Below are positions 15,564 to 27,939 of a stretch of DNA of 33,099 nucleotides, in pieces. The first letter of the stretch is position 1. Each line of letters begins with the position of its first letter. Below the pieces are notes generated by a model. That model was not told the DNA's origin. It ran no database searches and saw only the letters and a list, made by a program, of their open reading frames with translations. The position numbers and the translations under genes are program-made. Source of the DNA: an uncultured Selenomonadaceae bacterium (GTDB lineage Bacteria > Bacillota > Negativicutes > Selenomonadales > Selenomonadaceae); assembly GCA_905234505.1 (NCBI GenBank), contig CAJOIA010000016.1, forward strand, positions 1-33,099, given 5' to 3'.

Positions 15564-16373
15564 CTAGCTCAAAATTTCCTTAAAAGTTTCAAAGTTAGTC
15601 ATTTCGCGCGGAGTGCAATAAATGGCGAAAACAATTTCCTTAAAATAGCCGTCAAATTCGGGTAAAATTTTTTCGTAAGCCTGCGCGACGGTTCTAGGGT
15701 TATTCTGGAATGCGCCGCAACCGAAAGCGCCGGTTACAAAAATATCAACGCCATTAGCTGCAAGCACTGTTAACATATGGCGCGCGCGTTTTTTGTGAAT
15801 CTCGAACAAATCATAATCTTTCAGCAGAAATCGACTAAGATTAGGTGCGGCACAAGTTATAACTTCAACCTTAATCCAGTCATTTTTAGGCAAACGCTCC
15901 GGTATATCAGTATCGCTCTTGCAAACAATAATATTGGGCGTATAAATGCAGGCGTCAGTATAACGGCTGTCTCTGCGCGAATAGTGAAAATCATAGTAGC
16001 GTTGAAAATTTTCTTCGGTGTCGAGCACCGGATAAAGCGTCGAACAGCGACAAAGCGCCTCTTCCTGCGCGCGACTGCCATGAACAACGCCGCCGCCTGG
16101 ATTTGTTGCAGAGGCAAAATTATGAACAGCAATTCGAGCGTCAGGATTATCTTTGCGCAGATTAAAAGCCGCCTCGAATGTGCGCGCTTGAATTACAGAA
16201 ATTTTTGTGCTGTCAAATTTTTTTGCAGGCAACGCAGGATAACTTTCAGCATCATAAAAAATCGTACCGGCAATAGATTTTTCAATGGATCTTTGCAAAG
16301 TTGCGTCGCTACTATACCATTGCTGCGTATCAACAAAAACTTCAACCAATTCTTCCTTCGTCACGAACGACAT
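15564..16373 (-). CDS. Bacterial poly(ADP-ribose) glycohydrolase-like protein (TIGR02452/DUF2263)
   Basis: A 269-aa macrodomain-type protein with the PARG signature GGG...QEE: GGG at 93-95 and QEE at 103-105 in NPGGGVVHGSRAQEEALCR, followed by SRRDSRYTDACIYTPNI and GAFGCGAFQNNP. Enzymes with this signature remove ADP-ribose or poly(ADP-ribose) from proteins, with the second glutamate as the expected catalyst. I chose ATG at 16373, nine bases after GGAGG. The longer frame to 16598 only translates the 39-bp repeats of the upstream gene off frame. It overlaps the end of the HemZ-like gene by 32 bases, suggesting coupling, and is 7-13 bases from hisS. No ADP-ribosyltransferase is visible in the window, so the substrate is unknown. 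Confidence 0.85.
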   Translation of the reverse strand: MSFVTKEELVEVFVDTQQWYSSDATLQRSIEKSIAGTIFYDAESYPALPAKKFDSTKISVIQARTFEAAFNLRKDNPDARIAVHNFASATNPGGGVVHGSRAQEEALCRCSTLYPVLDTEENFQRYYDFHYSRRDSRYTDACIYTPNIIVCKSDTDIPERLPKNDWIKVEVITCAAPNLSRFLLKDYDLFEIHKKRARHMLTVLAANGVDIFVTGAFGCGAFQNNPRTVAQAYEKILPEFDGYFKEIVFAIYCTPREMTNFETFKEILS

Positions 16374-18666
16374 TAGCATTTGCCTCCTTGTTAAATTTCT
16401 TCTTGGACTTTTTAGATTTAAATTTGGGCTTTTTATTTTCAGCGGTTGGATTTTCTTTAACAGCGGAAGCGATTTCTTCAGCCGATGAATTTTCTTCAAC
16501 AGTGGCGGCAGTTTCTTCAGCCGATGAATTTTCTTCAACAGTGGCGGCGATTTCTTCAGCCGGTGAATTTTTTTCAACAGTGGCAGCAGTTTCTTCATCA
16601 GATGAATTTTCTTTCACAGTGGCAGCGTTTTCTTCAGCAGTTGGATTTTCTTTAACAGCGGAAGCGATTTCTTCAGCCGGTGAATTTTCTTCAACAGCGG
16701 CGGCAGTTTCTTCAGCCGATGAATTTTCTTTAACAGTGGCAGCGTTTTCTTCAGCCGACGAATTTTCTTCAACAGCGGAAGCGTTTTCTTCAGCCGGTGA
16801 ATTTTCTTCAACAGTGGCGGCAGTTTCTTCAGCAGATGAATTTTCTTCAACAGTGGCAGTGTTATCTTCAGCCGATGAATTTTCTTTAACAACAGCAGCG
16901 GCAGTTTCTTCAGCCGGTGAATTTTCTTCAACAGTGGCGGCGTTTTCTTCAGCCGGTGGATTTTCTTTCACAGTGGCAGCGTTTTCTTCAGCCGATGGAT
17001 TTTCTTTAACAGTGGCAGCGTTTTCTTCAGCCGATGAATTTTCTTTAACAGCGGCGGCAGTTTCTTCAGCCGATGAATTTTCTTTAACAGCGGAAGTGGT
17101 ATCTTCAGCCGACGAATTTTCTTTAACAGCGGCGGCAGTTTCTTCAGCCGGTCCATAAATTTCAGCTAAAATCTTTTCGCGGTTTTCAATGTATTTATCC
17201 ACGTCGCGCAGATAAGTTATCAAATCTTTAGCGTGGAAAGTGGACTGCAGACGCATATTTTCATTGTCGGGAACTTTTGTACTTGCCGCTGCACCTACGC
17301 CCAAAATCGTTTGCCGTTCATCCATAATCTGGATATTGTAAATTCCTTCCGCGCCGCGCTTGCAATAGCCGATATTTTCAATTTGCCCGCTGATATAGCC
17401 CTGCCTGTAAAGATAGTACGGCTGATAATTTTTCTCGCGCAGAAGTTTTTCCGCCACATAAGCCATCCGCTGAACTTCGGCGTCCGAAGGCAATTCAAAA
17501 TCTTCAATGTGCGAAATTTCCTCAGCAAGCATCGTCTGCAAAGGTGAGCCGCGTTTAATCGCCAGCGCGTGCAATGTCACATCGTCCGGATTGAGCGCCA
17601 AAACTTTTTTAACGCTATCTTTCACGTCATTAATATTTTCGCCAGGTAAGCCCAGAATCAAATCCATATTAATATTGAAATCGCCCGCCGCGCGCAATTC
17701 ATTAAAAGCCGTGATAACTTGCTCGGTGGAATGTTGCCGCCCAATTCTGTCCAAAGTTTTCTGCTGCATAGTTTGAGGATTGACGCTAACTCGCGTCACG
17801 TGGCAATTTTTCATAGCCGAAATTTTTTCAGCGCTAATCGTATCTGGACGCCCGCATTCAACGGTAAATTCTTCGACGCCGTCACTGTAAAACGCTGACT
17901 TAACTTTGCTCAGCATTTCGGCAAAAAATTTTTCAGGCAAAGCGGTTGGAGTTCCTCCGCCAACATAAATACTTTGAACTTTAAAACCATAACGCTTAAT
18001 TTCCGCCGCCGCCGCGTTAATGTCTTTAGTCAAAACGCTCATAAATTCAGCAACTTTTTCGTCGTTGGGCAAAACATTTGACGGAAACGAGCAATACAAG
18101 CAGCGCGTCACGCAAAATGGAATACCGACATACACGCCAATAATTTTTTCGCCGCCAGTTTTTAAAATTGGAATTTGGCGAATTGCCACTTCAGTTAACA
18201 AATAGGATTTATCATAACTGGTCAAATAATCTTCGTGCAGGCGACTAGAAATCTTACTGCAATCAATGACGCCGTACTTTGTCATCCCAAAACCGTCGCG
18301 CAGCCAGCGATGAATAATTTTTGTAGGTCTGACGCCGTGCATAATTCCATAGGGAACTCCTGCTAATTTTAAATCGCCGGTTAAAATTCTATACAGATTT
18401 TTTTTAATGAGCCTATGAATTTCAGCGCCGCGCCGCTCTTTCGGATTAATGCTGTCAATCTCGCTGAATTTTTTATCGACGCCGTTTTTGCGCACAGTTA
18501 AACGCGTCTTGACATTTTCGCTGCCAATCATATTCAGAATTTCAAATTTCTCAAAATCTGCCTCGCCGTCTTCAACTGTTTCAATGTGAAGTGCGCGCAA
18601 CACTTCACCAACAATTTTCACGATAACTTGATCGTTGCTGTTGAGCTTAAAATTTTTTATTTTCAC
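16342..18666 (-). CDS. hemZ: HemZ-like radical SAM coproporphyrinogen dehydrogenase with repetitive acidic tail
   Basis: A 774-aa protein. Residues 1 to about 505 match the Firmicute HemZ type of oxygen-independent coproporphyrinogen III oxidase-like enzymes: an N-terminal extension, then the radical SAM cluster motif CVTRCLYC (C185, C189, C192), VGGGTPTAL, the RVSVNPQTMQQKTLDRIGR segment and a HemN-type C-terminal region. HemZ proteins are assigned to anaerobic haem synthesis, though many relatives have other roles. Residues from about 507 to 741 are 18 repeats of 13 aa (consensus AEETAATVEENSS), followed by a lysine-rich end (KPKFKSKKSKKKF). Such a tail is foreign to the family and would roughly halve the relative size of the enzyme part. 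The start is GTG 18666, overlapping the fur stop (GTGA). Regulation by the upstream Fur protein is plausible. Confidence 0.88.
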   Translation of the reverse strand: MKIKNFKLNSNDQVIVKIVGEVLRALHIETVEDGEADFEKFEILNMIGSENVKTRLTVRKNGVDKKFSEIDSINPKERRGAEIHRLIKKNLYRILTGDLKLAGVPYGIMHGVRPTKIIHRWLRDGFGMTKYGVIDCSKISSRLHEDYLTSYDKSYLLTEVAIRQIPILKTGGEKIIGVYVGIPFCVTRCLYCSFPSNVLPNDEKVAEFMSVLTKDINAAAAEIKRYGFKVQSIYVGGGTPTALPEKFFAEMLSKVKSAFYSDGVEEFTVECGRPDTISAEKISAMKNCHVTRVSVNPQTMQQKTLDRIGRQHSTEQVITAFNELRAAGDFNINMDLILGLPGENINDVKDSVKKVLALNPDDVTLHALAIKRGSPLQTMLAEEISHIEDFELPSDAEVQRMAYVAEKLLREKNYQPYYLYRQGYISGQIENIGYCKRGAEGIYNIQIMDERQTILGVGAAASTKVPDNENMRLQSTFHAKDLITYLRDVDKYIENREKILAEIYGPAEETAAAVKENSSAEDTTSAVKENSSAEETAAAVKENSSAEENAATVKENPSAEENAATVKENPPAEENAATVEENSPAEETAAAVVKENSSAEDNTATVEENSSAEETAATVEENSPAEENASAVEENSSAEENAATVKENSSAEETAAAVEENSPAEEIASAVKENPTAEENAATVKENSSDEETAATVEKNSPAEEIAATVEENSSAEETAATVEENSSAEEIASAVKENPTAENKKPKFKSKKSKKKFNKEANANVVRDEGRIG
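16444..17148 (-). repeat. Eighteen 39-bp tandem repeats in the hemZ-like gene
   Basis: Eighteen units, each 39 bp except one of 42 bp (it encodes AEETAAAVVKENSS). They encode AEE(T/N/I)A(A/S)(T/A)V(K/E)EN(S/P)(S/P/T). Units vary at a few fixed positions and some blocks recur in the same order (AEEIASAVKENPT appears as units 13 and 18), pointing to unequal exchange. Since 39 is a multiple of three, unit gain or loss keeps the frame. Confidence 0.95.
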
Positions 18667-19133
18667 GTCGTCACCTTATTTCTACAGTCCGAGCAATACC
18701 CGAAAAATTTTACTTCGTGGTTGACAATTTCGAAATCAGCTTTCGCGGCAATGCGGTCTTCCACTTCGTCAAGCATATCTTCCTTGAACTCGATAACTTT
18801 TTTGCAATTTAAGCAAATCAAATGATGATGGCGATGAGTTTTGCCGTCGCCGCTGCTCAATTCATATCGCACGCAACCGTCATCAAAATTTACCTTCATC
18901 AAAATTCCGAGTTCGGTCAAAAGTTCGACATTGCGATAAACCGTCGCTAAACCAAAATCAAAATCTTTCTTGCGCAAAAGTTCATGAACTTCCTCCGCGC
19001 TCAAATGGTTACCTTGCTCGCTGTCAATGAAAACTTGCAGAATTTCTTTGCGTTGCGGCGTCATTTTATAATTATTTGCCGATAACTTGCCGCGTAAATC
19101 CTGCATTTTAAAGGATCGCTGGGTTTCGCTCAT
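18663..19133 (-). CDS. fur: Fur-family metal-dependent repressor
   Basis: A 156-aa regulator with a winged-helix DNA-binding part (MTPQRKEILQVF..., recognition helix GLATVYRNVELL about 61-72) and a metal-binding dimerisation part (THRHHHLICLNC, 99-110). Two CxxC pairs (C107/C110 and C147/C150) form the structural zinc site. The overall pattern is closer to Fur than to Zur, but PerR cannot be excluded. The ATG at 19133 is preceded by AGGGGG nine bases away. Its promoter is at 19167-19195. It is the first gene of a unit continuing with hemZ (4-base overlap), the PARG-like gene and hisS. I could not identify a clear Fur box at the promoter, although it is very AT-rich. Confidence 0.93.
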   Translation of the reverse strand: MSETQRSFKMQDLRGKLSANNYKMTPQRKEILQVFIDSEQGNHLSAEEVHELLRKKDFDFGLATVYRNVELLTELGILMKVNFDDGCVRYELSSGDGKTHRHHHLICLNCKKVIEFKEDMLDEVEDRIAAKADFEIVNHEVKFFGYCSDCRNKVTT

Positions 19134-19929: not shown

Positions 19930-22455
19930 CTTAGCTTCACTCCAATTTTTTCCGTGATGAATGTCTACGCTCAGCGGCACTTTCAAAGTGATAACATTTT
20001 CCATAGCCGCACGAACAATTTTCTCAACCTGCGCAAGTTCTTCAGCCTTAGTTTCAACAACAAGTTCGTCGTGAACCTGCAGGATAATGCGGCTTTGCAT
20101 ATCGGCAAGATTTTTTTCTGCGCGAATCATAGCAATTTTGATAATATCAGCAGCAGTGCCTTGAATCGGCGTATTCATAGCCATTCGCTCGGCAAGCCCG
20201 CGTTGATGAAAATTGGCGCTTTTAATCATTGGCAAAAAACGTCGCCGCCCAAAAAGTGTCGTAACGTAGCCGGTTTCGTGCGCCTGCGCAATAGTTTTGT
20301 CAAGAAATTCTTTGACCTTAGGATACCGCGCAAAATACAGGCTGATATATTCGCCAGCCTCTTTACGCGAAATGCGCAAATCCTTTGACAGCCCGTAATC
20401 GCTGATACCGTAAACAATACCGAAATTAACCGCCTTAGCTTTGCGGCGCAGGTCGGGCGTCATATTGTCGATTGACACGCCGAAAACTTCAGCCGCCGTC
20501 CGCGCGTGAATATCTTCGCCACTCAAAAACGCATTAATCAAATTTTCGTCGCCGGACATATGCGCCAAAAGTCGAAGCTCAATCTGCGAATAATCAGCTG
20601 ATAATAAATAATCGTACCCTTCGCCAGGTTCAAAAAACGCGCGAATTTCTCTGCCTTCTTCGGTGCGCACGGGAATATTTTGCAGATTCGGATCTGAACT
20701 TGAAAGCCTGCCGGTTGCCGTGACAGTCTGATTAAAATTCGTGTGCACTCGGTGAGTTTCAGGATTTATCAAAATTTTAATGCCGTCAAGGAAAGTTGAC
20801 TTCAATTTGGCGAGCGTGCGGAATTTGATAATTTCGTCGATAATCGGATGAATGTCGCGCAGATTTTCAAGCACTTCAGCATTAGTAGAAACGCCGGATT
20901 TAGTTTTTTTCCTGGTCTGCGTCACCGGCGGCAGATTCAATTTGTCAAAAAGAATTTCAGCCAATTGCTTTGGCGAATTGATATTGAATTTTTCACCAGA
21001 AAGCGCGTAAATATTTTCCTCGATTTTAGCAAGGCGGCGTTGCATATCGGCGGATTTTTCTTCAAGGCGGCTGGTATCGACATAAACGCCGCGCATTTCC
21101 ATTTTCGCCAAAACTGCAGTCAGCGGCAATTCCATTTCATAATAAATTTTGGTGAGATTAGCCGCGTCAAGTTTTTCAGCGTAAAGAGCGCCGAGCTTTT
21201 CAAGGGCGACAACTTCAGCGGCGGGCGAATCTGGCAGGCTCATATCAAATTCCCGCGTCAACAATTCAGCGCAGGAATATTCTTCGCGCTCAGGATACAG
21301 CAGATAAGCCGCAATCTCCACGTCGAATACTAGTGAATAGTGGTTAGTGGTTAGTGGATAGTGCTTTATTATTTTTTTTAAGCCGTGCACAGTGATTTTT
21401 TTCTCGCTGTTAAAAATTTCGACAAGCTGACTATCATTGACAGAAAAAATTTCGTCGCCCGCCTTAACAAAATTGCCCGCTACAGCCAGATTTTCCGCGC
21501 TAAAAATTTTATTCATATCGGTCGCGCTAATTTCCGGCACTTCCAAAATATTCTCGGGCGCGTCGTTCGTAAATTCAGCGAAAAGATTTTCAGTTGAATC
21601 ATAAATTTCATGGATGCGGCGCTTTGCAACTTTCAAGGCATAGCGATTGCAAAATTCATCCACGCGATTTAAATGCGGCGTGATTTTAAATTCCTGCGCG
21701 ACAAAATTAATATTCGGCACATTACAAATAATCTGCGCGAGTTTCTTACTGAGCCTTGCAATCTCAACATTGCTTTGAATCGCCGTGCGGAATTTTTTTT
21801 GAGAAATTTTATCGCTATTGGCAAGGACGTTTTCCAAATTTCCAAATTCCTGCAAAAGTTTCGTGGCAGTTTTAGGACCAACACCCGCCACTCCAGGAAT
21901 ATTATCTGAATCATCGCCGCACAAGCCTTTATAATCGACCAGAAGCGGCGGTGCAAATCCAAATTCGGCAGTGAATTTTTCTTTGTCGTAAATTTCAACG
22001 CTGGTATTTTTAACAAAAAGCACGCGCGTATTTTCATTAATCAGCTGAAAAGCATCGCGGTCGCCAGTCACAATGTCGACAAAAAAATCAGCCGACGCTT
22101 GAGCCGATAAAGTGCCGATAATATCGTCAGCCTCATAATTCGGCGCGGACAAAGTTTTAATTCCCATAGCTTTGGCAAATTCTTCAAGCATAGCCATTTG
22201 AGCAATTAATTCGCTCGGAGTTTTTTCACGCCCGCCCTTGTATTCAGGATAAATTTCAGTGCGAAAAGTTTTGCGCGAAGTGTCAAGCGCTATCGCCGCG
22301 TAATCTGGACTGTATTCGCGCAGAAGTTTTACCAATACATTTGAAAAACCGGTAATTCCGCCGGTAGGTTCACCGCTCGGCGCCGTCAAATTCGGCATAG
22401 CATAAAACGAGCGGTAAAAAATGCTGCTTCCATCAATTATTAGTAATCTCTGCAT
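19927..22455 (-). CDS. polA: DNA polymerase I
   Basis: An 842-aa family A polymerase that removes RNA primers and fills gaps. Residues 1 to about 290 are the 5'-3' exonuclease (LIIDGSSIFYRSFYAMP, ANYEADDIIGTL, YKGLCGDDSDNIPGVAGVGPKTA). The middle region keeps the exonuclease fold but I see no DEDD residues, so proofreading is probably lost. The polymerase domain has motif A SADYSQIELRLLAHM, motif B RRKAKAVNFGIVYGIS and motif C VHDELVVE (about 794-801). Residues about 365-375, HYPLTTNHYSL, are encoded by a heptamer repeat array. The ATG at 22455 has AGGA eight bases upstream and overlaps the end of the L,D-transpeptidase gene by 23 bases. Confidence 0.97.
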   Translation of the reverse strand: MQRLLIIDGSSIFYRSFYAMPNLTAPSGEPTGGITGFSNVLVKLLREYSPDYAAIALDTSRKTFRTEIYPEYKGGREKTPSELIAQMAMLEEFAKAMGIKTLSAPNYEADDIIGTLSAQASADFFVDIVTGDRDAFQLINENTRVLFVKNTSVEIYDKEKFTAEFGFAPPLLVDYKGLCGDDSDNIPGVAGVGPKTATKLLQEFGNLENVLANSDKISQKKFRTAIQSNVEIARLSKKLAQIICNVPNINFVAQEFKITPHLNRVDEFCNRYALKVAKRRIHEIYDSTENLFAEFTNDAPENILEVPEISATDMNKIFSAENLAVAGNFVKAGDEIFSVNDSQLVEIFNSEKKITVHGLKKIIKHYPLTTNHYSLVFDVEIAAYLLYPEREEYSCAELLTREFDMSLPDSPAAEVVALEKLGALYAEKLDAANLTKIYYEMELPLTAVLAKMEMRGVYVDTSRLEEKSADMQRRLAKIEENIYALSGEKFNINSPKQLAEILFDKLNLPPVTQTRKKTKSGVSTNAEVLENLRDIHPIIDEIIKFRTLAKLKSTFLDGIKILINPETHRVHTNFNQTVTATGRLSSSDPNLQNIPVRTEEGREIRAFFEPGEGYDYLLSADYSQIELRLLAHMSGDENLINAFLSGEDIHARTAAEVFGVSIDNMTPDLRRKAKAVNFGIVYGISDYGLSKDLRISRKEAGEYISLYFARYPKVKEFLDKTIAQAHETGYVTTLFGRRRFLPMIKSANFHQRGLAERMAMNTPIQGTAADIIKIAMIRAEKNLADMQSRIILQVHDELVVETKAEELAQVEKIVRAAMENVITLKVPLSVDIHHGKNWSEAK
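21331..21363 (+). repeat. Heptamer tandem repeat array inside polA
   Basis: 4.7 units of 7 bp on the plus strand: TAGTGAA, TAGTGGT, TAGTGGT, TAGTGGA and TAGTG. On the polA strand it encodes HYPLTTNHYSL, a loop before VFDVEIAAYLL in the degenerate exonuclease domain. Same family as 19895-19929 but opposite orientation. Confidence 0.85.
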
Positions 22456-23785
22456 GATTCATCCTCAACACTTCAACGGTTTCAATTTCCTCAATGGGAA
22501 TTTTCTTTTCGCGCACTTTTTTATCGGTGGATTTTTTATCGGACTTCTTATCAGATTTCTTATTGTCAGCTTTTTTCTTATCGGACTTTTTATCTTTGTC
22601 AGCTTTCTTCTTATCGGCTTTCTTATCTTTATCGGTTTTTTTCTTATCAGCTTTCTTATCTTTGTCAGATTTTTTCTTGTCAGACTTTTTATCTTTGTCA
22701 GCAGGTTTTTCCGGCGTCAATTCTTCAATCGGCTTATTTTTGTCAATGTCTTTAATTTTATCTTTCTTGGACTTTTTATCGAGTTTGGAATTTGCCACGT
22801 AGAATTTAAAAACTTTGCCGTCGGTTGGACTATCTGAAATATTTTGCAGCCCGCCATCAAGATTAAAAAGTACAATAGCATCATCTGCATTGCAGTAAAT
22901 TTGCGATTTGCTCTCAAAGCCGGTAACAGTGCCGTACTTGGTTTTTAATGCAGCTTCGTCCGCGCGCCATTCCAATTTAGTTTTAAGCGCCATTGCCACA
23001 GGCACAACCGGCAAATAATTAATATTATCGCGCTGAACTGCTTTTGCTAAAAATTTGCGTCCGTTGACTTCGACGTTATCAATGCGCTTGCCTTGCACTT
23101 CGATATTGTAAGGTTTACCAATGGCTGTAGGCGTTCCGTCCGACGCTTCAATTTTTTCTTCAATGCTAGCGTCGCTCTCGAAAGGCGCAACTCCATAAGG
23201 CTCAAGCCAGCGGTTAACATAGTCAACGTCAATATTTTGCCAGCCGTAGCCATCGGGATAAATCGAATAAACCACATTGCCATCAGCAATTTTTTCAACA
23301 ACTACGCGATTATAAGTTATATCGACCGGTGTTCCAACATCAACCGCGTCAAAAATTGTTTCAACGTCAGCCTCGCGCATACGCACACAACCATTTGAAA
23401 CATAACCGCCAATACTGTCGGGGCGATTTGTGCCGTGAATGCCGTAATTTCCATAAATCTGCATCCAGCGATAGCCCAGCGGATTATCTGGACCGGAAGA
23501 AACTATGTATTCTGGATCGTTCGGGTCAATCCACGGCGGATTTATTTCCTTCGCCACGATTTTAAAATAACCAACTGGCGTCGGTGTATAAGTTTTTCCT
23601 AAACCTAATGGATATTCGGCAATTTTTACGCCGTTTTCATAATAAGCCATAATTCGACTTGCCGCATTTATCGCAATTCGCTTTTCAATTTTAGGAGATT
23701 TAGCCGATTCTTCTGCATCTGCCGTTGAGCCAAAAAGCATCGACAATCCTAAAAATCCTGCCGCTAGTTTACCAAAAAGTTTCAA
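22433..23785 (-). CDS. L,D-transpeptidase (YkuD) with stalk-like domain and Lys/Asp-rich tail
   Basis: About 450 aa. It begins with a signal peptide (MKLFGKLAAGFLGLSMLFGS..., cleavage near residue 24), then a YkuD domain (about 35-160) with H117 in YGIHGTNRP and the catalytic C133 in GGYVSNGCVRM. The residue before GC is asparagine rather than the common histidine. Such enzymes make 3-3 peptidoglycan cross-links or attach proteins to the wall. Residues about 230-350 resemble a copper amine oxidase N-like domain common in Firmicute surface proteins. From about 365 to 430 runs a repeat of DKKSDKKKADK type, then an ordinary C-terminus. I prefer TTG at 23785; GTG at 23794 is possible but too near the AAGG site. 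It leads the polA-gmhA unit. Confidence 0.88.
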   Translation of the reverse strand: MKLFGKLAAGFLGLSMLFGSTADAEESAKSPKIEKRIAINAASRIMAYYENGVKIAEYPLGLGKTYTPTPVGYFKIVAKEINPPWIDPNDPEYIVSSGPDNPLGYRWMQIYGNYGIHGTNRPDSIGGYVSNGCVRMREADVETIFDAVDVGTPVDITYNRVVVEKIADGNVVYSIYPDGYGWQNIDVDYVNRWLEPYGVAPFESDASIEEKIEASDGTPTAIGKPYNIEVQGKRIDNVEVNGRKFLAKAVQRDNINYLPVVPVAMALKTKLEWRADEAALKTKYGTVTGFESKSQIYCNADDAIVLFNLDGGLQNISDSPTDGKVFKFYVANSKLDKKSKKDKIKDIDKNKPIEELTPEKPADKDKKSDKKKSDKDKKADKKKTDKDKKADKKKADKDKKSDKKKADNKKSDKKSDKKSTDKKVREKKIPIEEIETVEVLRMNHAEITNN

Positions 23786-23817
23786 CTCTAGCACTGCCTT
23801 TCAAAAAATTTTTCGCC

Positions 23818-25412: not shown

Positions 25413-25443
25413 ACATTGATTGAAATTAAAAGGGGCGCTTGTA

Positions 25444-27939
25444 TTGCAGCTACTTTATAACCTCGCGGCAATTTTAGTCGTGATAATAATAATTCCGGTT
25501 TTTTTGGTACGCTCGATTAGAGAAAAAGGCTTCGTCGAACGAATAAAGCAAAGCTTAGGATTTTTTCCGGAAGGCGCGCTAGATCCTGTGGCGAAAAAAA
25601 ATTGCATATGGGTACACGCGGCTTCGGTCGGCGAAATTGTTGCAACCAGTCCGCTAATTAAAGAATTTCGGCGCGAATTCCCAAAATCGCCAATCTTAGT
25701 CTCGGTCGTCACAACTTCCGGCTACGAAATGGCTAACCGCATTATCAAAGACGCGGACAGCATAATTTATTTCCCGCTAGATTTACCATTTGTAGCGGCG
25801 TCGGTTTTGCGGCGAATTCACCCGCGAATTTTTTTAAACGTTGAAACGGAACTGTGGCCGAACTTTTTAAAAAACGCGCGGCAAATGCATATTCCGGTTA
25901 TGATGGTTAATGGCAGAATTTCAGATAAAAGCGTGCGACGCTATAAATATATGTTTTCAATTTTAAGCGATATGATCGGCACTGTGAAATTTTTTGCAAT
26001 GCAGTCGCAGATTGACGCAAATTACATAATGGAATTGGGCGCGCCAAAAAATTTAGTAACGGTTACCGGCAACACGAAATTTGACCAAACCTATACCGAC
26101 GTGACGCCGGAAGAACGCGAAAAAATTTTATCCGATATGGGCTTGAAAAATGCAGAGGGAATTTTTTTAGCAGGCAGTACTCATCGCGGCGAAGAAGATT
26201 TTGTTTTGCGTGCATTTAAAGGCGTTCGTGAAAATCATCCGCGCGCTAAATTGGTTATTGCTCCGCGCGAGCTTTTGCGCACCCGCGAAGTTATCAGCAT
26301 TTGCAAAGGCGCAGGTTTCAAAGTTGGTACTCGAACTGAATTGCAAAAGCGATCGCCTGCTGACGAAGATATTATCATTCTTGACACAATCGGCGAGCTC
26401 GGAAAAGTTTACAGCGTCGGCGACGTGATTTATGTTGGCGGCAGTTTGGTTACTCACGGCGGGCATAACATCCTTGAACCGGCGGCTCATGGCAAAGCTA
26501 TTATTGTTGGTTTGCATATGGAAAATTTTAAAGACACTCATGCACTTTTCAAAAATCGCAACGCCTGCATTACCGTTAACAATCCCGATGAACTTGTTGA
26601 AGAAACTAAAAAACTTTTCGACGACCCTAATCACCGAAAACAACTTGAAGATGAAACTTTAAAAATCGTCAAGGAAAATCGCGGCGCGTCCAGAAAATCC
26701 GCTGAACTTTTGCGCAAAGTTTTAACTGAATATGAAGCTAAGGAAAATTCGCGCCACCCTCGCACTACCCAGAAAATTGAAAATCTCCGCACTTATTTTA
26801 TTTATCTGATTCACCTCAAGGATGAAGAAATTCAGGGCGTCTTTTTAACTTTGCTGATGGCTGTAATGTATATTTTTTCGCTCATTTATCAGCAATTGGT
26901 AAATATCAAACTTTATTCTTACAAAATTGGGCTTTTGGGCAAAGAGCGGCTGAATTGTTACGTTATCAGTCTTGGGAATATAACGGTTGGCGGTACTGGT
27001 AAAACTCCGACGGCTCAGCGATTAGCGCGCGATATTCGTGATATGGGTTATCGTGTAGTTATTTTAAATCGCGGCTACAGGGCAAAATGGCATGGCAAAG
27101 TTGGCGTGGTTTCTGACGGGAAAACTTTGCAGATGGACGCGGCGGAAGCGGGCGACGAAGCTTATATGTTGGCTAAACATTTGCCGAACGTTCCGGTTTT
27201 AATCGGCGCTGAAAGAGCTGTTACCGGTAAATATGCAATCGAACATTTCGGCGCGGAAGTTGCTATTTTGGACGACGGCTATCAGCACTGGCAACTTATT
27301 CGCGATATGGATATTTTATTGGTTGACGCCATTAATGTTTTTGGCAACGGGCATTTATTACCGCGTGGTTCTCTGCGCGAATCTATGTCTCATATCAGTC
27401 GCGCAGATTTTTGTTTAATCACGAAGGTTGACCAAGCTGCAGCGGGCTCAGGTGAATATATTCGCGAAACCGTGCATAAGTACAACGCTAATGCCAAAAT
27501 TATTGAAAGCATTCACCAACCGCGTTGCTTTATTTCACTGGCTGAATGGTTTATTGACATGGCGAATGAAGGCATTGACATTGAAAATATTTCCGGCAAA
27601 AAAATTATGGCAGTTTCGGCGATTGGCAATCCTGCGTCATTTGAGCTTACGCTAAAAGATTTAGGCGCTGAAATTCTTGAGAGCATTCGTTATCCCGACC
27701 ACCACGAATATACTATTAAAGAAATGCGCGACGTACTTCAGCAGGCTGACGCGATTGGTGCTGACTCGATCATCATTACTGAAAAAGACGCTGTGAAAAT
27801 TCCTGCCGAATTTGCTAAAACCAATTGGAACATTCCCATTTTCGTGATTTGCGTTGAAGTTAAATTTCAATCTGGAGCCACTGAATTTCAAAATGAGCTT
27901 CGCCGTCGTTTAAGTGAAAAACTGGGCGCGCGTAAATAA
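25444..27939 (+). CDS. waaA-lpxK: Fused Kdo transferase (WaaA) - lipid A 4'-kinase (LpxK)
   Basis: A single 831-aa protein joining two successive lipid A enzymes. Residues 1 to about 430 are WaaA (GT30): a membrane anchor (LLYNLAAILVVIIIIPVFL), the catalytic glutamate in HAASVGEIVATSP (about residue 63), NVETELWPN, GGSLVTHGGHNILEPAAHGK. Residues about 450-831 are LpxK: a membrane helix near 472-490, P-loop VGGTGKTPTAQR (about 514-525), the signature DDGYQHWQLIRDMDILLVDA and the later ITEKDAVK. WaaA adds Kdo to the lipid IVA precursor, LpxK phosphorylates its 4' position; both act on the inner leaflet of the cytoplasmic membrane. TTG at 25444 is eight bases after AGGGG. The junction is in frame without any stop, so this is a true fusion. 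Confidence 0.95.
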   Translation: MQLLYNLAAILVVIIIIPVFLVRSIREKGFVERIKQSLGFFPEGALDPVAKKNCIWVHAASVGEIVATSPLIKEFRREFPKSPILVSVVTTSGYEMANRIIKDADSIIYFPLDLPFVAASVLRRIHPRIFLNVETELWPNFLKNARQMHIPVMMVNGRISDKSVRRYKYMFSILSDMIGTVKFFAMQSQIDANYIMELGAPKNLVTVTGNTKFDQTYTDVTPEEREKILSDMGLKNAEGIFLAGSTHRGEEDFVLRAFKGVRENHPRAKLVIAPRELLRTREVISICKGAGFKVGTRTELQKRSPADEDIIILDTIGELGKVYSVGDVIYVGGSLVTHGGHNILEPAAHGKAIIVGLHMENFKDTHALFKNRNACITVNNPDELVEETKKLFDDPNHRKQLEDETLKIVKENRGASRKSAELLRKVLTEYEAKENSRHPRTTQKIENLRTYFIYLIHLKDEEIQGVFLTLLMAVMYIFSLIYQQLVNIKLYSYKIGLLGKERLNCYVISLGNITVGGTGKTPTAQRLARDIRDMGYRVVILNRGYRAKWHGKVGVVSDGKTLQMDAAEAGDEAYMLAKHLPNVPVLIGAERAVTGKYAIEHFGAEVAILDDGYQHWQLIRDMDILLVDAINVFGNGHLLPRGSLRESMSHISRADFCLITKVDQAAAGSGEYIRETVHKYNANAKIIESIHQPRCFISLAEWFIDMANEGIDIENISGKKIMAVSAIGNPASFELTLKDLGAEILESIRYPDHHEYTIKEMRDVLQQADAIGADSIIITEKDAVKIPAEFAKTNWNIPIFVICVEVKFQSGATEFQNELRRRLSEKLGARK

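Follow-up and report, generated by a model that had tools for sequence, protein, structure and literature searches.

In the contig analysed here (the window, 33,099 nucleotides from an uncultured Selenomonadaceae bacterium), an open reading frame for the radical SAM enzyme HemZ continues far beyond its enzyme core, through a long tandem array and into the start of the next gene. The locus raises the question of whether this tail is a genuine part of the protein, how it arose and what it may do. The following features are concerned.

16342..18666, minus strand: hemZ ORF, 774 aa, GTG start; matches TIGR03994 with 455.6 bits, and the Radical_SAM Pfam family
17161..18666, minus strand: HemZ core, residues 1-502, with the CX3CX2C motif C185, C189, C192
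16444..17148, minus strand: 18 tandem units AE(E/D)xAAxV(K/E)ENxx, 39 bp each except unit 7 (42 bp); acidic, predicted disordered
16396..16434, minus strand: basic block KKPKFKSKKSKKK at the end of the tail, assigned by sequence; alignable between two sister species and mostly the same in both
16383..16389, minus strand: AAGGAGG within the hemZ tail, a ribosome-binding-like site for the downstream gene, assigned by sequence
16342..16373, minus strand: out-of-frame overlap of 32 nt between the hemZ end (NVVRDEGRIG-stop) and the start of the downstream gene
15564..16373, minus strand: gene for a TIGR02452 / microbial PARG-like protein, 269 aa if started at the ATG at 16373
18663..19133, minus strand: Fur-family regulator gene, with a 4-nt overlap with the hemZ start

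The TIGR03994 HemZ profile spans residues 85-499 (model positions 2-400 of 401), its 455.6 bits comparing with a cut-off of 321.4. As the profile is matched almost end to end, the enzyme is complete and the tail comes on top of it. The three cysteines of the radical SAM motif are invariant among 39 aligned homologues; by score and motif, the core is a full TIGR03994 member. In an AlphaFold2 prediction made with a 39-sequence alignment, pLDDT is mostly high in the core up to about residue 504. It is about 36 for nearly the whole tail, low pLDDT being a prediction of disorder and not a proof, and the tail is thereby predicted to be intrinsically disordered. A preliminary description of this DNA had suggested that the 13-residue repeats form helices or a stalk. 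AlphaFold2 places no helix in the repeats and so lends the suggestion no support. Catalysis by HemZ is most likely unaffected by the tail.

The array starts at residue 507. Parsed unit by unit, it contains 17 units of 39 bp and one of 42 bp, running from 17148 down to 16444 and encoding 235 residues, after which comes AENKKPKFKSKKSKKKFNKEANANVVRDEGRIG. TRF delimits a 39-bp unit in 18.2 copies at 16438-17150, with a score of 909. All 18 units differ from one another, the most similar pair agreeing at 38/39. The Lys-rich end that follows occupies 16345-16443. The 18-unit tail of about 235 residues with a Lys-rich end, as first described, was thus located exactly to the base. No domain match was found when the tail was searched against Pfam, and a literature search on HemZ with tandem repeats returned nothing. 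The rest of the genome, searched with the repeat DNA, yielded a single further match, weak and 34 bp long (C54:5210-5243). It lies inside an ORF that appears ileS-like from its translation and is taken as a chance match.

With the start of the downstream TIGR02452 gene taken as the ATG at 16373, the final ~11 HemZ residues are an out-of-frame reading of that gene (32 nt, stop included). The VRDEG-like ending is therefore set by the neighbouring gene and not by HemZ. The same -32 offset is common to 12 genomes of the genus, including that of the window; in most of these the tail measures just 16-29 aa. Open in-frame sequence inserted 5' of the overlap is necessarily read as HemZ. A fusion of HemZ to the downstream gene by frameshift was considered and rejected: the overlap is of an ordinary kind and persists whether or not a tail is present.

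The genus was sampled with 66 genomes, one per species, the named close matches being rumen Selenomonadaceae metagenome assemblies. A HemZ search matched in 65 of the 66, G043 giving only a weak, distant radical SAM match. Tail length was read in 63 HemZ rows, G043 being left out, and tails of 50-274 aa were found in 20 rows from 19 genomes. As no row has a tail of 30-49 aa, the count is 20 at either threshold (30 or 50 aa). The majority of HemZ proteins in the genus have no tail; since these work without one, the tail is dispensable in most of the genus. At 30 loci of other genera, HemZ extends 0-12 aa past the core, and 6-20 aa at six further loci. Parsimony on a tree of 65 rows, two outgroups included, requires 8 changes from a tailless ancestor. 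The search for tailed HemZ among relatives, proposed in the preliminary description, was productive, with 18 other genomes of the genus found. The tail is a recurrently gained, fast-evolving, genus-level feature of a known enzyme.

Repeat units are lineage-specific, and the sequence and length of the tail differ in nearly every species. TRF detects an array in 14 tails, with main periods of 18, 24, 27, 33, 36, 39, 48 or 90 bp, all multiples of 3. The 39-bp period comes with four different units (AEETAATVEENSS-type, EVPAEPVEEIPAA, EPEKIVEEIQEVI and ETEKIPEVEEKKS). The great variation of tail length among relatives bears out the earlier suggestion that 39-bp units permit in-frame length change. 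In one species (G037) the end of the enzyme's own core, TYQRDIERYIERREKILAEVYTST, which is its last helix, reappears in the tail in diverged form as NLIRDTVRYIERHEDILSEIYSTVE. At least one tail thus includes a duplication of the last helix, and this is one route of birth.

Composition varies less than sequence. Pooled tails contain 22% Glu and 8% Pro, versus 8% and 3.5% in the cores; they are rich in Ala and Val, and poor in Leu, Gly, Met and Trp, bulky residues being scarce overall. Nearly all tails are acidic and most close with a net basic stretch. Six of the 20 (G028, G044b, G026, G063, G037 and G034, the last cut by its contig) lack a net basic end, which makes the acidic-then-basic plan no more than a tendency. 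Where present, the basic end is encoded by differing codons among species, for example CGC CGA CGA CGA CGA in G059, and AAG for the most part in G051. The GC3 of the tail tracks that of the core (r = 0.83, 20 tails), as mutation pressure alone would also produce.

The best evidence on selection comes from the sister species G040 and G042, whose tails align over 97 codons with a dN/dS of 0.18 (0.09 in the core). Third positions hold 21 of the 35 differences. Fourteen amino-acid changes are seen, versus a mean of 23.2 when the same substitutions are placed randomly, a value this low being reached in none of 5000 trials; leaving out the overlap region (the last 15 codons) does not alter the outcome, the numbers then being 12 and 21.6. 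Stops occur in all five other sense and antisense frames of these tails. The other tailed pairs give dN/dS values of 0.24-0.77 from gappy and doubtful alignments. Within the array of the window, pN/pS is 0.59 in the hemZ frame, and 0.26 and 0.45 in two other frames, values that do not discriminate between frames. Purifying selection acts on the tail in the G040/G042 pair, and would by extension act on the remaining tails. Judged from these sequences, the tail looks real and translated.

The tail is rather likely a translated, disordered extension of HemZ, composed of an acidic spacer and a basic Lys tip and built by in-frame tandem duplication. A long acidic spacer of Glu, Ala, Val, Ser and Thr would grow by such duplications and end in a Lys block, with lengthening presumably through slippage or unequal recombination. 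The region from hemZ to where the overlapping gene starts would necessarily be coding, and in-frame insertions there would become HemZ tail. Selection may maintain the acidic-then-basic composition rather than the sequence. The basic tip, carried on a flexible spacer, could stick weakly and by charge to anionic lipid, to RNA or to an acidic partner; alternatively, the whole tail could be a solubility or excluded-volume tail. By analogy with other disordered tails, either a tether or a solubility role may be envisaged.

The explanation that competes best, possible although on the unlikely side, is that the tail is tolerated junk: the end of hemZ would be permissive, with its stop inside the next gene, slippage repeats would be weakly selected against, and the composition would be what a soluble tail tolerates. 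Hypervariable sequence and length are what it predicts, as are the several gains and losses reconstructed by parsimony, the absence of a tail from most species of the genus, and dN/dS values of 0.35-0.77 in several pairs. It accounts poorly for the clear constraint on the G040 and G042 tails, for a basic end that recurs in different codons, and for tails being either short or long, with none between 30 and 50 aa.

A more specific proposal draws on the haem pathway. No match to PF01208 (HemE, uroporphyrinogen decarboxylase) or to PF00762 (ferrochelatase) was found in the 66 genomes of the genus, the controls being detected for both, and HemC was found in 62 of the 66. In the genome of the window, NirJ1 (697 bits, cut-off 650) adjoins NirJ2 (591 bits, cut-off 500) at L163:5605-7790, and related radical SAM genes recur across the genus. 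Together they point to a siroheme-based route, by which haem is probably made in the genus. With this route and neither HemE nor ferrochelatase, HemZ as a coproporphyrinogen dehydrogenase would be left without an evident substrate. Of the initial designation as a haem-synthesis radical SAM enzyme, the HemZ identity stands on TIGR03994, and the role in haem synthesis is doubtful. HemZ might then have left canonical haem synthesis while the siroheme NirJ1/NirJ2 route runs, and the acidic spacer with its basic tip might be a tether favoured by selection, holding the repurposed enzyme at a membrane, RNA or a partner, its length tuned by repeat number. This proposal is speculative and regarded as doubtful.

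The tail of FtsZ, as reviewed (PMC9939409), combines a hypervariable disordered linker, whose flexibility, charge and length matter, with a conserved peptide. HemZ shares the succession of a folded core and a disordered linker of variable length and little sequence similarity, and may share a short terminal sticker. The two tails are not homologous, and the comparison is an analogy only. The terminal peptide of FtsZ is conserved and its partners are known, whereas the tip of HemZ is merely basic and the tail is missing in most species. The basic block of HemZ does align between sister species, and recurs, though not in all tails. As a compositionally biased stretch in a prokaryotic enzyme, the tail resembles the low-complexity regions of prokaryotes. 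The study of these regions stresses conserved ones (PMC6821194), unlike the HemZ tail, which is hypervariable and was gained repeatedly in one genus. Within TIGR03994, the sampled HemZ proteins of other genera have no tail, and searches of this genus did not find the canonical pathway partners.

Another explanation, considered very unlikely, takes the tail as regulatory DNA or RNA read as protein. On this view the tail would act on translation of the overlapping gene, by spacing or enhancement; an initiation region would be made up of the A-rich end and AAGGAGG, and the Lys block would be a by-product. The hemZ tail does contain the ribosome-binding-like site and the start of the TIGR02452 gene, and the overlap is conserved in the genus. 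Species nearly devoid of a tail nevertheless keep the overlap; tails also occur upstream of another gene (hisS in G031) and where no following gene was identified; the ends show no particular A-richness in G059 (0.36) and G051 (0.29); and in G040 and G042 it is the amino acids that are under purifying selection. An assembly artefact or chimera, to which the fragmented assembly (97 contigs) and the general proneness of long tandem arrays to assembly error (PMC6868369) could point, and by which the preliminary description supposed that the tail might be refuted, is highly improbable, given 18 units with no identical pair, 18 other tailed genomes with different units, and an intact reading frame and downstream overlap.

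With the tail read as a translated and disordered extension, one genus offers a natural series of a single enzyme: tailless, short-tailed and very long-tailed, with units that differ and a composition that stays similar. Such a series lends itself to studying how disordered tails originate, and whether it is their composition and length, not their sequence, that selection acts on. A further question, raised by the missing haem-pathway genes, is the job of HemZ in these bacteria.

Low-complexity tails had been supposed to be a trend in this organism. Partial sampling of its genome (433 kb) revealed five in-frame coding arrays, in HemZ, an L,D-transpeptidase, an alanyl-tRNA synthetase and two RTX-like proteins. 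In-gene arrays thus exist beyond HemZ, in the L,D-transpeptidase and the alanyl-tRNA synthetase for instance, and with five in 433 kb the trend is modest. Similar partial sampling gave four arrays in 400 kb of G031 (HemZ, an apparent L,D-transpeptidase orthologue and two others), and none in 400 kb of G098, from another genus. The preliminary description also mentioned an L,D-transpeptidase whose repeat tail is rich in Lys and Asp, and this was confirmed at 22433-23794 (YkuD domain, 33-bp repeat). In G031 the apparent orthologue (L254:8359-9636) carries a repeat tail of another kind, made of Lys/Ala/Glu. The alanyl-tRNA synthetase (L165:8259-11339, G000:C19) ends in a ~148-aa LEA/apolipoprotein-like tail of VKDAVAEKVDDAK repeats. 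Among 30 alanyl-tRNA synthetase loci, this tail occurs only in the species of the window and its two closest relatives (G040 and G042), with an almost constant length.

An intergenic array was also noted at L149:8387-8890 (G000:C2), with 3.2 copies of a 162-bp unit and 82% matches. Elsewhere in the window, the matches of the ORF at 624-1742 are limited to two domains of MmeI-type restriction enzymes, the N-terminal and the helicase-spacer domain, and it looks like a truncated remnant. At 25420-27939, a single ORF of 839 aa joins two lipid A enzymes, a KDO transferase (WaaA-like) and LpxK.
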